In this document: one piece after another, positions 18,152 to 28,595 of the stretch
How the letters are laid out: every line of letters starts with the position of its first letter
Position numbering within the stretch: the first letter of the stretch is position 1
Origin: a virus
IMG/VR virus record: IMGVR_UViG_3300032236_000554
Coordinates: 1 to 35,676 of that record
DNA length: 35,676 bases
Reading direction: 5' to 3' (one strand)
Program-made: the position numbers and the translations under genes
Notes under the pieces: model-generated
The model's input: the letters and a program-made list of their open reading frames with translations, nothing else
What the model was told of the DNA's origin: nothing
The model's database searches: none

Positions 18152-19498
18152 TCAAACACCCAAACCGTGACCACAAGACGGGCAGACCAGGGCAGACTTC
18201 GGGGCGGGCATGCGACACGACGGGCAGAACTTCGCCAGGGCGGCCAGACCCATGATTGACGACTGGCCGGCCATCAAGTCAGTCATCGCCCAAACCATCG
18301 CATCCATGCGGTCAGGGCTGTCGCCGCTGTCAGGTGTCCAGTTCGTCATCTGGTCTTCAAGTTCAGGGAACGCCCCAACATGATGCGCCCGGTGTTGCTC
18401 ATAAAGGGCGGCCACAGGTTCAGCCCTGATTAGTTTGCCGCGGGTCGCCGTCACCTTCGTGTAAGCAATCGACGGGTCAACCTGGCGCAAGACCAGTTCA
18501 ATCATGTCGCCGCCGTTGTTGGTTTCGCCGACGATGCGGTCAGCCTGATGCCGGTGGTATGCGTCAACGGCCGCCCTAGCCCATGCCTGGGGGCTGGCGC
18601 GAAGCGTCAAGTCTTCAAGCACATAGTAATGACCATCGTTCGCAACACCGGCCACAACGATGCCGGTCATGTCGCTGTCGCCGCCTGATGTGACGGCCGG
18701 GTCAATGGCGACCACGATGCGAGTGAGTGGCGGGGCTTCGTCGACCCTGGCCGCTTCGACCATGTCACGCGACCACAACGCGCCTTCAACATCGTCGATA
18801 ATCTCGCCATACAGTTCTTGACGACCCAGGCGTGTGCCTTCGTAACGCAACCGCATTTCGGCGAGTGCGCTCTCTGACAGGTTGGCGGCGTTGTCGAAGG
18901 TTGAACCACGAACCACGACGGTGTCGTCGCGTTTGTTTAGTTCTTTGATTTGCTTCGTCGGCCGGGGTGTTGTTGTGATGATGGTTTGCGGGTGTTCGCC
19001 CAGGCGAAGGCCGAACTTGTATTGGTCGAATGTGTCGGTGTATTTGAACGACGCCAGTTCATCAAACCAACCACCATGAAACTGTGGACCACGAAGGCGG
19101 TTCGGTTCTTCACCTGAGAACAGTTTGATGCGTGACCCGTTGGTCAACACGATTTCACCGATGCTTCGGTTGTAGTCCTTCAACGCCTGGTATTCCCGCA
19201 AGATGTTGACCACGCCTGACACGCCTTCGGCACAGGTGTCGCGGGCGTCAGCGAAGGTCGGGGCAACAATCGCCCAACGGGTGTTTGGGTTGCGTGACGC
19301 TTGCCAGGCCAACCATTCGGCGGCGGTTCGGGTCTTGCCCCAACCACGGCCGGCCAACACTAACCAGGTGTTCCAGTCGTGGCTGTCAGTCGGTATCTGG
19401 TCAGGCCGGGCTAGTTGATGTGTCCACCGGGTTCGCCTGGCCGCTAGCCAATAAAGCGGCGAGTTCGGCGACGGCGGTGTCAATGCTGTTTCTGTCAT
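18152..19498 (-). CDS. terL: Terminase large subunit with C-terminal zinc ribbon
   Basis: A 448-residue DNA-packaging motor and nuclease. Walker A GRGWGKT (50-56), Walker B WFDE (acidic pair 146-147), coupling motif TTTPRPT (176-182). The RNase H-like nuclease has candidate acidic residues D266 (VVAIDPAVTSGG), E325 (ETNNGGD) and D396/D399 (SPDRMDAM). After the nuclease comes an added zinc ribbon, C425-x2-C428 and C439-x2-C442, not part of the minimal TerL fold. The ATG overlaps the small terminase gene by 98 nt. It is the last gene before module A. Confidence 0.93.
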   Translation of the reverse strand: MTETALTPPSPNSPLYWLAARRTRWTHQLARPDQIPTDSHDWNTWLVLAGRGWGKTRTAAEWLAWQASRNPNTRWAIVAPTFADARDTCAEGVSGVVNILREYQALKDYNRSIGEIVLTNGSRIKLFSGEEPNRLRGPQFHGGWFDELASFKYTDTFDQYKFGLRLGEHPQTIITTTPRPTKQIKELNKRDDTVVVRGSTFDNAANLSESALAEMRLRYEGTRLGRQELYGEIIDDVEGALWSRDMVEAARVDEAPPLTRIVVAIDPAVTSGGDSDMTGIVVAGVANDGHYYVLEDLTLRASPQAWARAAVDAYHRHQADRIVGETNNGGDMIELVLRQVDPSIAYTKVTATRGKLIRAEPVAALYEQHRAHHVGAFPELEDQMTNWTPDSGDSPDRMDAMVWAMTDLMAGQSSIMGLAALAKFCPSCRMPAPKSALVCPSCGHGLGV

Positions 19499-19856
19499 AA
19501 GTTTCGACCTGTGCCTTCACATTTAGGTTTGTTGGGGCGTCTAAGCCCAGAAGCCTGGCGCGGGCGGCTATGACCCGCAACACGGCGTCAACGGCGCGTG
19601 TGTCGCCGCTGATGGCCTTCTGCCACAGGCCGGCCTGTAATCGGTCTAACCGTTCTAGTTCAATGTCACGGTGTTCTTCAAGGTTTGGGCGAACCATGCG
19701 TTCAGCCGCCCGTTGATAAGCGCGGTAAGCCCCGCTTGCGTTGGCGTAGCCGGTTTGTTTGGCGATGCCTTCCCAGGTGATGCCGGCCTTGCGAAGTTCG
19801 ACGACGCGCGCTTCGGTTTCAAGTAACGCCGGTTCTGGGGCTTTTTTGCTTGTCAT
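19401..19856 (-). CDS. terS: Terminase small subunit
   Basis: A 151-residue protein. The N-terminal helix-turn-helix (VVELRKAGITWEGIAKQTGY) would bind the packaging site. A middle helical region (LDRLQAGLWQKAISGD, then VLRVIAARARLLGLDAP) matches actinophage small terminases. The C-terminal 32 residues are encoded in the 98-nt overlap with terL. It lies directly upstream of terL and after the kinase gene. Confidence 0.8.
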   Translation of the reverse strand: MTSKKAPEPALLETEARVVELRKAGITWEGIAKQTGYANASGAYRAYQRAAERMVRPNLEEHRDIELERLDRLQAGLWQKAISGDTRAVDAVLRVIAARARLLGLDAPTNLNVKAQVETYDRNSIDTAVAELAALLASGQANPVDTSTSPA

Positions 19857-19870
19857 GGTTTTACTCTATC

Positions 19871-20401
19871 TCAGGCAAACACGGTAGCCAAGATGAAGTT
19901 GGCGGCCTGGTCGGGGGTTAGGTTGCCGGGGATTGTGATGGCTTCGTGGCGTTCTGCCAGGTTGCGGTGTTTAGTGACACGGCCGGCGACCCAGGTCGGG
20001 TTCTGTTGTTTGGTCTTCGCCTGGTCGGCTCGCAACTGTCGGCGGTCTGTTGCCACGGCCGGGTTGGTGTCTAGGTAAAACAGCCACAGGTCGCCACAGG
20101 CTTCGGCTAGTTCCATGAAGCGGTTGTTGGCCAGGCGGTCGCCTTCACCGATGACGATGTCGGCGTCGATGTCGGGCAACCAGTTTTCGATGGTTTCGAT
20201 GACCGTGTAAGGGAGTGTGTCTGTGCCGCTGAATGGGGGTTTGTGCCAACCCAGGGCGATGATGTCGTTGGTGTTGTCGCTGAACCGGCGGTGTTTGACT
20301 GGGTGCGGTTCGTCGCCTAGGTGTCGCCAACGGTTTGTTAGTGCCTGGCTGACGGTTGTTTTGCCCGCGCCGGGTGCGCCAATGATGTAGATGGTCAGCA
20401 T
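19871..20401 (-). CDS. P-loop kinase, candidate DNA-base or nucleotide kinase
   Basis: A 176-residue protein. Walker A GAPGAGKTT (8-16) at the extreme N-terminus; an acidic Walker-B-like segment DADIVIGEGDR (79-89); a later basic segment with DRRQLRADQAKTKQQ. Small kinases of this class lie beside TET/JBP and ParB-like genes in phages and are proposed to phosphorylate hydroxymethylated pyrimidines in DNA (related enzymes act on 5-hydroxymethyluracil). Here it is three genes downstream of the TET-like gene and next to terminase. A kinase for free deoxynucleotides is the main alternative. Kinase fold is clear; substrate is inferred. Confidence 0.75.
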   Translation of the reverse strand: MLTIYIIGAPGAGKTTVSQALTNRWRHLGDEPHPVKHRRFSDNTNDIIALGWHKPPFSGTDTLPYTVIETIENWLPDIDADIVIGEGDRLANNRFMELAEACGDLWLFYLDTNPAVATDRRQLRADQAKTKQQNPTWVAGRVTKHRNLAERHEAITIPGNLTPDQAANFILATVFA

Positions 20402-20402
20402 G

Positions 20403-20642
20403 TTATTCGCGCGGGGTGTGGATTTTGGTGATGGCGTATTGCCAGGCGGTCACTTCTGACGCGGTGGCTGTTGGTTCTTTGGCCAGGGTTTCAAGGGTTT
20501 CTATGATTTCGGCTTCGCGAAGGTCGCGACCCATTTCGATGGCGAACCCTAGTTGTTGGGCGACCATGTTGTAAGCGGAGTTTGCTTCGGCTAGTTGCTC
20601 AGGTGTTGGTGGTATAAGTTCGGCCTGGGTGTCGTCGGTCAT
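20403..20642 (-). CDS. Small acidic helical protein in the modification cluster
   Basis: A 79-residue protein (AELIPPTPEQLAEANSAYNM and onward), predicted helical and acidic. The ATG overlaps the stop of the upstream 55-residue gene (ATGA), and its own stop is one base from the kinase start, so all are co-translated. Family not recognised. Its place between TET-like and kinase genes suggests an accessory function, but the sequence does not reveal one. Confidence 0.6.
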   Translation of the reverse strand: MTDDTQAELIPPTPEQLAEANSAYNMVAQQLGFAIEMGRDLREAEIIETLETLAKEPTATASEVTAWQYAITKIHTPRE

Positions 20643-20806
20643 TCTGTTCCTTTGTTGATTAGGCGGCGAAGGTCGCTGAGTGCGATGTCGCCACGCATGG
20701 GCGGGTTCGTTGCTAGGTCGTTCAATAGTTTGATGATGCGTTCGCGTTCGGCGATGATGCCAGTCTGGAAGGCGATGCTTGTCAGGCTGGCGGGTTGGCC
20801 GGTCAT
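20639..20806 (-). CDS. Small 55-residue protein between TET-like and acidic-protein genes
   Basis: The sequence reads MTGQPASLTSIAFQTGII, then AERERIIKLLNDLATNPP and MRGDIALSDLRRLINKGTE. The start overlaps the TET-like stop (ATGA) and the stop overlaps the next start (ATGA), so it is embedded in a translationally coupled chain. Predicted to be two helices. The ERERIIKLLNDL segment resembles the helical tail of many small actinophage proteins of unknown function. Confidence 0.65.
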   Translation of the reverse strand: MTGQPASLTSIAFQTGIIAERERIIKLLNDLATNPPMRGDIALSDLRRLINKGTE

Positions 20807-21690
20807 GGTTTGGCCTTCTTCGGTTTGATTTTGGTTTCGGCTTCGCCGGTCAACACTTGTTTCATGTGGTCTTCGCGTTCGGTTCTGATGGTTTTGCCGC
20901 GGGCGGTTTCAACGGCAAAGGTGAAGCAATCCTTCATACCGCGCAACGCATAGTAAACGACGCTGTAACGGTATGCGCCTTCGGCACGGGCTTCCATGGG
21001 GGTGACGCCGTGAACGAACTTGTAACCAGGGAAGAACAGAACCCAACCGTCGCGACAGGCGATTGTTGCGTTGTATTCAGGGAAGTTCAGATAACCGCCG
21101 TTCATGTTCTTGCGTATAACCGGCATTGCTGACCAGGTTTGAAAGTTGAACGCGTCGCGGTGGTATGGCAACTGGCTGGATTTGTTGATGACGCCCGAAG
21201 TCCATAAAGCGTCGTCTGTCATTCGCCATTCGTCGGTGATGCCTGACCCGGCCATGGTTTCGACATCGGCTTCGAATAGGTGCGGCGCGAACTCTTTGAA
21301 CATGTTGGCGAACTTGGTGGCGAAGGCAATCAGAACGCCGTGTTCTTCGGGCTGTTCGCGGGCTAGGGTTGTGGGCTTACAGGCGTCACGGCCACGCATT
21401 GCGGCGCGGGGTGACATTCCGAAGGTGCGCGACAGGTTGGTGATGCGTGACGCGCTTCGGGTGATGTTTGCCCCATACTTGACAGACAGAACCGACCGGC
21501 GCAACAAGGCGACTTCGTCTTCCATGGGGAAGTATGCCAAGAACGGTTCATCGGTTTCGGCGTCGACATAGATGCCGGCCTGGTTGATGTTCGCGTCGAT
21601 GACTGGCACGGTGTCGCCAACCATGGCTGTGGCTTCGTCTGGGGTTATCACCCTGGCCACTTTGATGATGGGCAGGTCGCTCAGTTTCAT
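20803..21690 (-). CDS. TET/JBP-like 2-oxoglutarate/Fe(II) dioxygenase
   Basis: A 295-residue protein. The double-stranded beta-helix core shows the iron-binding H177-x-D179 (QLPYHRDAFNFQTWSAM), a distal H227 (GYKFVHGVTPM) and R241 for 2-oxoglutarate (YRYSVVYY), with GGYLNFPEYNATIACRDGW between them. Upstream, SRTFGMSPRAAMRGRDACKP is the N-terminal signature of the phage branch of this superfamily. Phage TET-like enzymes are known to oxidise 5-methylcytosine in DNA to 5-hydroxymethylcytosine. It overlaps the ParB-like gene (ATGA) and precedes the kinase and terminase. A C5-cytosine methyltransferase elsewhere in the window could supply the substrate. Confidence 0.88.
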   Translation of the reverse strand: MKLSDLPIIKVARVITPDEATAMVGDTVPVIDANINQAGIYVDAETDEPFLAYFPMEDEVALLRRSVLSVKYGANITRSASRITNLSRTFGMSPRAAMRGRDACKPTTLAREQPEEHGVLIAFATKFANMFKEFAPHLFEADVETMAGSGITDEWRMTDDALWTSGVINKSSQLPYHRDAFNFQTWSAMPVIRKNMNGGYLNFPEYNATIACRDGWVLFFPGYKFVHGVTPMEARAEGAYRYSVVYYALRGMKDCFTFAVETARGKTIRTEREDHMKQVLTGEAETKIKPKKAKP

Positions 21691-22352
21691 GCGTGGGGTG
21701 CGCTTTCCTTGAAGAAGATTTCCATCAGGTTGACGATGGCGTCGGCGTTGGTTTCAAGGTTCGCGGTCTTGCGATGTTCGGCCAGTTTGTCGATTACCCA
21801 GACATAGGTGTCGTTTGGGTAATCAAGTATGACCATTCGGGTCGCCTTGTCGTTGTATCGTTCGGTGTATTCAGCGAGTGATGGCCGGCGTTCGACATTG
21901 TTTTCGTTCGGCACGGTTTCGGCCTGGGTGTTGATGACGGTGTCGATGTTGATTTGTGGCACGGTTGCTTCTTGAATACCGGCGATTAGGTCGTCGATGT
22001 CGTCGTCGCTGTAACCTGTGCCATCAAGGTCGGCCAGGCCGGCCAATAAGTCGGCCAGGGCGGTGTCGTCATAACTGCCCAGGTCGGCGATGCGGTTGTC
22101 GAACGCGACGATTTTGGCGGCGGTGTCGTCATCAACATCAACGAACACGACGGAGATGTGCGGCCATCTAAGGGCTTGGGCGGCCATAAAGGTGTGATTA
22201 CCCGCCAAGATGGTGTTTCCCCGTCTGTTGACCGTCAGCGGCTTGTATTGGCCGTATCTGGTCAAACTGTCGGCAATCGCTTCGATGTTGCCTTTGCGCG
22301 GGTTGCCTGGATAGGTGGTTAGGTCGCCCAGGGCGACTTCTTCGATTTCCAT
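21687..22352 (-). CDS. ParB-like nuclease-domain protein
   Basis: A 221-residue protein. The ParB N-domain is clear: VALGDLTTYPGNPRKGNIEA, then IADSLTRYGQYKPLTV, the G-N-H-T box (51-54), and an AAKIVAFDNRIADLGSYDD segment. A second conserved region (TRMVILDYPNDTYVWVIDKL, about 172-191) follows an acidic linker. Proteins of this type sit next to methyltransferases, TET/JBP and terminase genes in phages and are thought to handle or nick modified DNA. Start ATG 22352 has AGGATT upstream; a 19-residue in-frame extension runs into the previous gene and is rejected. Confidence 0.82.
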   Translation of the reverse strand: MEIEEVALGDLTTYPGNPRKGNIEAIADSLTRYGQYKPLTVNRRGNTILAGNHTFMAAQALRWPHISVVFVDVDDDTAAKIVAFDNRIADLGSYDDTALADLLAGLADLDGTGYSDDDIDDLIAGIQEATVPQINIDTVINTQAETVPNENNVERRPSLAEYTERYNDKATRMVILDYPNDTYVWVIDKLAEHRKTANLETNADAIVNLMEIFFKESAPHA

Positions 22353-27550: not shown

Positions 27551-28222
27551 TCAAAACAACCCATCTAACAGTTCGCGTAACGCCGCTTCTGCCTGTTGTG
27601 GCACAACGCCGTTACCACAGGCTTTTAGTTCTTGTTTGCGGGTCAACCCGATGTCTGTGACCCATCCGTCAGGCAAACCCATCAAAAACTCCGTGAACTT
27701 CGATGACAACCTGCGCGCGCCATTTTTACCGTCTGGTTTGGTTGGTTCTGGCGATGACCGCCCTAGGATGCTTTCCCATCTTGCGATGGCTGGCGCAAAC
27801 TTTCCCCAGTTCGTTGAGCGTTCAGTTTCCCAAACCTCGCTTGCCAAAGTTGTGCGGCGGCCTTGGTTGTGACCTGTGTTTTTGCTGTCATCGACCTGCG
27901 GCGTTGGCAACAGTTCATTGACGAACACGGCGCGCGACAATGTATCGGTTTGCGTCACGCCGTTGCGACGATGTTCTTTGTTACCGTCTTTATAGTCGCG
28001 CGCCGTTGGGGTAGGCAACGATGAAGACGCGTTCGCGTCGATGTGGCGCGCCGGCGTCGGAAGCGCGAAAAGTTGTCCACCGACAGTCATACCCGAGTTC
28101 GGCCATACTTCCCGCCACGGCTCCCAATGCTCGCAGATTAGGTTTATCAGGGGGGCTTCCCATACACCAAGAACACGGTTCCAGGTCGCTATGGGCATTT
28201 GCGCTGAGTATTCCACGGACAT
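27551..28222 (-). CDS. C5-cytosine methyltransferase, C-terminal part (TRD, motifs IX-X)
   Basis: About 223 residues. Three LPTP units (LPTPARHI, LPTPTARDYKDG, LPTPQVDD) mark the target-recognition region. Near the end are the motif-IX-like RRLSSKFTEFLMGLPDGW and motif X (ACGNGVVPQQAEAAL). It lacks motifs I-VIII, which lie in the upstream overlapping frame, so the two products together make one methyltransferase, as in the two-subunit M.AquI. Start is uncertain: TTG 28228, ATG 28222 (SD-like GGTGG upstream) or ATG 28198. VWPNSGMTVGGQLFALPTP, encoded inside the overlap, matches related proteins, so an upstream start is favoured. Confidence 0.8.
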   Translation of the reverse strand: MSVEYSAQMPIATWNRVLGVWEAPLINLICEHWEPWREVWPNSGMTVGGQLFALPTPARHIDANASSSLPTPTARDYKDGNKEHRRNGVTQTDTLSRAVFVNELLPTPQVDDSKNTGHNQGRRTTLASEVWETERSTNWGKFAPAIARWESILGRSSPEPTKPDGKNGARRLSSKFTEFLMGLPDGWVTDIGLTRKQELKACGNGVVPQQAEAALRELLDGLF

Positions 28223-28595
28223 TTTCAATTACCACCAATCTAGGTCGGATTGTTTCGATAGCGCGGGCAAACTCCGACCATAACCCGCTTCGTGTTCCAT
28301 CTTTTAGACCGGCGCGTTTGCCGGCCAATGACAGGTCTTGACATGGAAAACCACCTGTCAGAATGTCGACCTGTTCGACCTGTGTGAAGTCGACCTTTGT
28401 TACATCGCGATAGTTCGGCACACCTGGGAAGTTTTTTTCTAGTATTTTGCTTGGCGCGTCATCGTATTCGCAATGCCAAATAACTTTGCCACCCGTGACA
28501 GCGGCGACCGCTAGGTCAAGACCACCGTAACCACTAAATAAAGACCCGATTGTCATTTGTGAACCATTTGATTGAACGGTAACAACATTTTTCAT
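27990..28595 (-). CDS. C5-cytosine methyltransferase, N-terminal part (motifs I-VIII)
   Basis: A 201-residue protein. Motif I FSGYGGLD (20-27), motif IV GGFPCQDLS with the catalytic C85, motif VI ENVRG (124-128) and motif VIII HRRERVFIVA (185-194) are all intact. The protein stops seven residues after motif VIII, before any target-recognition domain. The ATG overlaps the zinc-ribbon stop (ATGA); an internal ATG (MTIGSLF) lacks a ribosome binding site. The product would transfer methyl groups to cytosine C5 in DNA once paired with the downstream part. This region is visibly more AT-rich than its neighbours, suggesting later acquisition. Confidence 0.88.
   Translation of the reverse strand: MKNVVTVQSNGSQMTIGSLFSGYGGLDLAVAAVTGGKVIWHCEYDDAPSKILEKNFPGVPNYRDVTKVDFTQVEQVDILTGGFPCQDLSLAGKRAGLKDGTRSGLWSEFARAIETIRPRLVVIENVRGILSANAHSDLEPCSWCMGSPPDKPNLRALGAVAGSMAELGYDCRWTTFRASDAGAPHRRERVFIVAYPNGARL

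Follow-up and report, generated by a model that had tools for sequence, protein, structure and literature searches.

Which base does a phage alter when it carries a TET/JBP-like dioxygenase a few genes ahead of its terminase, and what is then attached to that base? We addressed this question for the whole of a 35,676-base IMG/VR virus record (hereafter, the window). A first-pass annotation had interpreted this locus as a pathway by which cytosines in the phage DNA are methylated, oxidized, and phosphorylated. Comparison with related loci points instead to thymine as the more likely oxidized base, and reveals a slot behind the dioxygenase gene at which the downstream enzymes are exchanged between phages. 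We read the virus as an actinobacterial phage from freshwater, the habitat being an interpretation of the source and not a computed result. Its relatives come from metagenomes and one Actinomycetota MAG, and a megablast search of the window against phages returned 0 matches. The 80 nearest IMG/VR loci are referred to below as the freshwater group, a habitat label which is likewise an interpretation of the source. The record has its genes on the minus strand and also encodes WhiB, RusA, and a Cas4-like gene.

A tightly packed gene chain leads to the terminase

The first-pass annotation had described a chain of coupled genes (a ParB-like gene, a TET/JBP dioxygenase, two tiny genes, and a P-loop kinase) running up to the terminase, and this chain is present. 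It lies entirely on the minus strand, tightly packed in the order ParB, TET, tiny gene 1, tiny gene 2, kinase, small terminase subunit (TerS), and large terminase subunit (TerL), with 4-base overlaps between consecutive cassette genes except for tiny gene 2, which stops 1 base short of the kinase. TerL (18152-19498) was identified by PF03237 and PF17289. The small-terminase-like gene (TerS, 151 aa, 19401-19856) has homologs in 67 loci, in the same place before TerL; in the window, the two share 98 bases (19401-19498), read in different frames.

The cassette opens with a 221-aa ParB-like protein (21687-22352) whose ATG start at 22352 agrees with the 220-225 aa lengths of its relatives. Profile searches, which had been proposed as a way to confirm the assignments, placed the dioxygenase and the kinase above their Pfam cut-offs and identified ParB through PHROG (phrog_723, E 8e-47; phrog_6392, 1e-44), while the Pfam ParB_N score of 21 bits fell under the cut-off of 26.3. 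A ParB match was obtained in 93 of the 95 searched loci, window included, and ParB partners the TET gene in nearly all relatives. Since preQ0/DpdA 7-deazaguanine modules also begin with ParB (L211:1-4198, L212:1-4917), this protein is common to two chemically unrelated DNA-modification modules.

The tiny genes encode 55 aa (tiny gene 1, 20639-20806, overlapping each neighbour by 4 bases) and 79 aa (tiny gene 2, 20403-20642, a coupled small ORF before the kinase). Beyond the window itself, phmmer found no match to either at E ≤ 1e-3 in the 95 loci, which makes a role as enzymes of the pathway improbable for both.

A conserved TET/JBP dioxygenase

The 295-aa dioxygenase (20803-21690, minus strand) matches phrog_6059 with 274 bits and Pfam Tet_JBP (PF12851) with 35.4 bits, barely above the cut-off of 34.9; the same profile gives 32 and 24 bits for two relatives. 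The iron ligands H177, D179, and H227 and the 2-oxoglutarate-binding arginine R241 are invariant across 54 relatives. A PDB profile search with the TET family matched NgTET1 and TET2, and the HRD motif and His/Arg pair of TET2 align with the family profile. The earlier reading hung on whether H177, D179, and H227 align with the TET/JBP profile, and they do: all four residues align with TET2, and the C-terminal part also with NgTET1. The AlphaFold model (pLDDT 83) has CcTET, NgTET1, and TET2 as its top folds (E 1e-11 to 1e-9), and the protein presents the HxD...H ligands, 2-oxoglutarate arginine, and double-stranded beta-helix fold by which TET/JBP enzymes are recognized. Its TET/JBP identity is backed by sequence, residues, and predicted fold, which lends good support to the "oxidise" step of the original proposal, base oxidation being the predicted activity.

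PHROG and GenBank frequently label this family "queuine tRNA-ribosyltransferase", a name in conflict with both sequence and fold. In sister phages, preQ0/DpdA modules follow ParB at the position that the TET holds here, a probable source of the wrong name.

A PF18751 kinase beside the terminase

The 176-aa P-loop kinase (19871-20401, minus strand) belongs to PF18751 (Ploopntkinase3; 91.5 bits, cut-off 27). Its Walker A motif (GAPGAGKT), including an invariant lysine, is conserved together with G51, F57, G59-T60-D61, E86-G87, R121, R124, and Q133. Its structural model (pLDDT 94.7) has adenylate, gluconate, shikimate, and UMP/CMP kinases as its nearest folds, and PHROG 800 labels the family as a terminase small subunit. 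In kinase-only lineages, the gene is under purifying selection (dN/dS 0.21-0.28).

Two distributions bear on the role of this kinase. Among freshwater-group loci with the terminase in view, it accompanies all 36 cassettes encoding an amino acid:DNA transferase (ADDT), 6 of the 6 with neither decorator, and none of the 25 "GT-type" cassettes, counts that come from related loci and not from independent events, with the GT-type class comprising TAGT-like genes plus unassigned genes judged glycosyltransferase-like by eye only. The second is the spread of kinase homologs over 389 phage records (362 from mycobacteriophages), against 94 for the window-type TET. The kinase adjoins the terminase in UncleHowie (L208), where PF12851 detects no TET, and in Saguaro (L211) and Funsized (L212), which carry a preQ0 module and no TET. 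Its catalytic residues are intact in all three phages, so there it must have another role or be a terminase-linked protein; public annotations of these genes read adenylate kinase or terminase small subunit. The "phosphorylate" step is therefore plausible from the company the kinase keeps in freshwater relatives, and weakened by its homologs in TET-less phages. On balance, we consider it somewhat more likely than not that the window kinase phosphorylates a base.

A split C5-methyltransferase, most likely independent of the cassette

The earlier proposal drew its 5-methylcytosine from a C5-cytosine methyltransferase at 27551-28595. This activity is encoded, with motifs I-X all present, though by two overlapping ORFs in different frames and not by one gene. 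The N-terminal half (27990-28595, minus strand; PF00145, 145 bits, profile positions 1-164) carries motifs I-VIII, and the C-terminal half (27551-28222/8, minus strand; phrog_1008, 3e-56) carries the target recognition region and motifs IX-X. Because an identical overlapping split is kept in two related loci, with a frame overlap of ~200-230 bases in each case (window 27551-28595; L040:7344-8901; L059:7337-8909), a sequencing error or pseudogene was excluded. The arrangement is similar to that of enzymes made of two polypeptides, for example M.EcoHK31I.

The dioxygenase is not generally accompanied by a methyltransferase. Of 50 TET records searched (11 complete isolates, 38 contigs no shorter than 18 kb, and the window itself), 5 contained a PF00145 C5-methyltransferase; none of the 11 isolates did. 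Homologs of its N half in 1587 phage records and of its C half in 572, widespread in actinophages, mark the split methyltransferase as a gene common among phages. In the window, it sits ~5 kb upstream of ParB. Most likely, it is an independent, common anti-restriction gene outside the cassette. L040 and L059 encode the split methyltransferase one gene upstream of ParB-TET, so a link may be conceivable in those two phages. Control TET clades (P12024L, MED4-184, DLP_6, C48C1) gave similarly low counts, with a C5-methyltransferase in 2/36 and 0/4, and no methyltransferase-coupled TET clade was found among the phage clades tested as potential positive controls.

Partner enzymes point to a thymidine route

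The genes that do accompany the window-type TET are the PF18751 kinase (31/50 records) and ADDT (28/50), with some cassettes adding an FAD oxidase or a PLP enzyme. A genome-contig scan yielded only 3 loci, each with ParB, a kinase, and an ADDT-type gene. The comparison set comprised ViI, M6, and PhiW-14, phages carrying hypermodified thymidine (PMC6449724). All three encode ADDT, a TS-like dUMP hydroxymethylase, and the HMUDK_hel kinase (PF18723), and none encodes PF18751. The TS-like hydroxymethylase and HMUDK_hel were each absent from all 38 TET records examined, and the hydroxymethylase from the window. From these complementary patterns, TET and PF18751 appear to stand in for the TS-like enzyme and 5-HMUDK ahead of a shared ADDT. 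Most simply read, TET and the PF18751 kinase would together supply activated 5-hydroxymethyluracil (5hmU) to ADDT, in agreement with a published guess, in the annotation of Rhodococcus phage Tonitrus, that its system hypermodifies thymidine (PMC11955845). Because ADDT partners and a lack of TS-like enzymes characterize the TET records, thymine is the likelier base in the clade that includes the window. With a methyltransferase in so few TET records and partners that belong to the thymidine route, we find no support for the "methylate" step.

Some relatives carry other decorating enzymes behind the same TET. L006 (5480-7593) and its relatives encode ADDT, a PLP-dependent (PALP-like, phrog_3650) enzyme, and the kinase, for which a different aminoacyl-type end product is possible. 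Acadian (L088:1707-3025, by Pfam) and Prairie (L092:6912-8242, by BLAST grouping and annotated as a glycosyltransferase) encode a TET-associated glycosyltransferase (TAGT), accompanied by a PIG-L-type or annotated glucosaminyl deacetylase and by no C5-methyltransferase; here an amino sugar on the hydroxymethylated base is possible. Acadian additionally has the kinase. The TAGT family is linked to 5hmC, and its presence in these relatives may keep cytosine as a possible base.

A swap slot between the TET and terminase genes

Across ~85 loci, ParB and TET are constant and the content downstream is variable up to TerS, which forms the right border of the slot. This content can be the kinase only; ADDT with or without an oxidase, plus the kinase; a second ADDT type with the PLP enzyme and the kinase; a TAGT-like gene; unassigned genes of 304-336 aa and 148 aa; or genes of 315-326 aa. 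The 304-336 aa gene was seen in L012 (10472-11841) and 14 other loci, mostly with the 148-aa gene and never with the kinase. Neither the 304-336 aa nor the 315-326 aa genes had a Pfam, PHROG, or credible PDB match, their glycosyltransferase-like character being judged by eye only.

Pairs of close relatives delimit the slot precisely. L007 and L008 are 89.5-89.9% identical on both sides of it, along 1.3 kb of upstream and 4.5 kb of downstream sequence. Between these flanks lies a clean exchange (L007:5599-6566 vs. L008:1307-1883), one phage having a 326-aa gene where the other has the kinase. The two sequences part within the last few bases of TET and come together again within the last few bases of the gene that follows. 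Similarly, Hangman and Nigel (87-89% identical) differ cleanly by ADDT, present in the former and absent in the latter. The TET clade containing the window (seven rows) displays five different decorations. At this one position, close relatives carry enzymes of a sugar or amino-acid type for the presumed second step. The window is one among several kinase-only versions, a state that is also seen in complete isolates, KayaCho and Ottawa among them, and that requires no fewer than 8 changes on the TET tree.

Proposed mechanism and alternatives

We give a slightly better than even chance to the cassette being a phage DNA base-modification module that combines TET hydroxylation, a swappable second step, and ParB guidance. 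In this model, the TET/JBP enzyme would hydroxylate the 5-methyl group of a pyrimidine in the phage's own DNA, with thymine, the likelier base, converted to 5hmU on DNA and not in the nucleotide pool. A swappable gene between TET and terminase would supply the second step, here the PF18751 kinase, with the newly formed hydroxymethyl group as its most likely target for phosphorylation, and ParB would probably guide or license the enzymes on DNA. Because no ADDT, glycosyltransferase, or other known decorator was found in the 35.7-kb record, which may be incomplete and in which most small genes lack an assignment, the predicted end product is a phosphorylated base or a mixture with 5hmU; the first-pass annotation had likewise seen neither a glycosyltransferase nor a thymidylate-synthase-like hydroxymethylase. 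Such a phosphate alone would protect, since SP8 DNA becomes resistant to many restriction enzymes through phosphorylation of 5hmdU alone (PMC7653180). The full reading, in which the finished base is phosphorylated 5hmU, made by TET/JBP and a kinase outside the 5hmdU-kinase family as one of several interchangeable end-steps at a fixed slot, is tentative, and we regard it as possible rather than probable. Several observations count against the mechanism: kinase homologs far outnumber TET (389 vs. 94 records) and are intact beside the terminase in TET-less phages, some relatives carry TAGT, and other phage TET clades also mostly lack a C5-methyltransferase (2/36, 0/4).

The choice of base and the role of the kinase are where other readings enter. 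None of the sequence features tested separates thymine from 5-methylcytosine as the TET substrate, and Burke et al. (2021) reportedly found phage TETs in viral metagenomes that oxidize 5-methylcytosine produced by methyltransferases co-occurring with them. A route from 5-methylcytosine to 5hmC and its phosphate, as originally proposed, would fit a window encoding all three activities and the proximity of the split methyltransferase to ParB-TET in L040 and L059. We nevertheless judge it decidedly improbable given the 5/50 and 0/11 methyltransferase counts, the 1587 records in which this gene is found, and partner enzymes belonging to the thymidine route; thymine is more likely than 5-methylcytosine on this comparative evidence.

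If instead 5hmU (or 5hmC) were the final mark, the kinase would have nothing to do with the base and would serve packaging or nucleotide metabolism. The TET-less mycobacteriophages with an intact kinase beside the terminase, the small-molecule kinases among its nearest folds, and the PHROG 800 label all fit such a role, which we nonetheless find unlikely: the kinase tracks ADDT (36/36) and avoids GT-type cassettes (0/25) in the freshwater group, whose phages own a separate TerS. More doubtful still is that the window represents a decayed cassette, having lost its amino-acid transferase and retained the kinase as a leftover. ADDT is indeed present in most kinase cassettes, Nigel lacks the ADDT of its close relative Hangman, and the kinase-only state has required repeated changes on the TET tree, yet purifying selection on the kinase in these lineages and the recurrence of this state in complete isolates both argue against decay.

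If the proposed module is correct, TET/JBP hydroxylation of thymine on DNA would be a shared first step among phages, with the second step exchanged as a plug-in (phosphate, amino acid, probably sugar), an economical way past restriction systems. A substrate would also be gained for the kinase family, which 389 sequenced phage records contain and which annotations call adenylate kinase or small terminase. The isolates KayaCho, Nigel, Hangman, Acadian, and UncleHowie grow on a laboratory host, M. smegmatis.

Comparison with known systems

The cassette is best placed by its similarities to four types of systems. Phage TETs with C5-methyltransferases (Burke et al. 2021) likewise combine a TET/JBP dioxygenase with neighbouring decorating genes, including TAGT in some relatives of the window, but the methyltransferase does not co-travel with the window-type TET (5/50). 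JBP, of the base J pathway, belongs to the same superfamily as the window TET, for which hydroxylation of thymine on DNA is likewise proposed, whereas the window lacks a glycosyltransferase. The thymidine hypermodification of ViI, M6, and PhiW-14 is reported to proceed from 5hmU through a kinase to ADDT (Lee 2018/2022). These phages obtain 5hmU with a TS-like enzyme and use the HMUDK_hel kinase (PF18723), where the window has TET and PF18751 and no ADDT; their ADDT family is also found in relatives of the window. Closest is Tonitrus, in which ParB, a TET of 47-49% identity, tiny genes, and the PF18751 kinase follow one another as they do in the window, also near the terminase; it differs by an ADDT (aGPT-Pplase2) and an extra 293-aa gene, both absent from the window.
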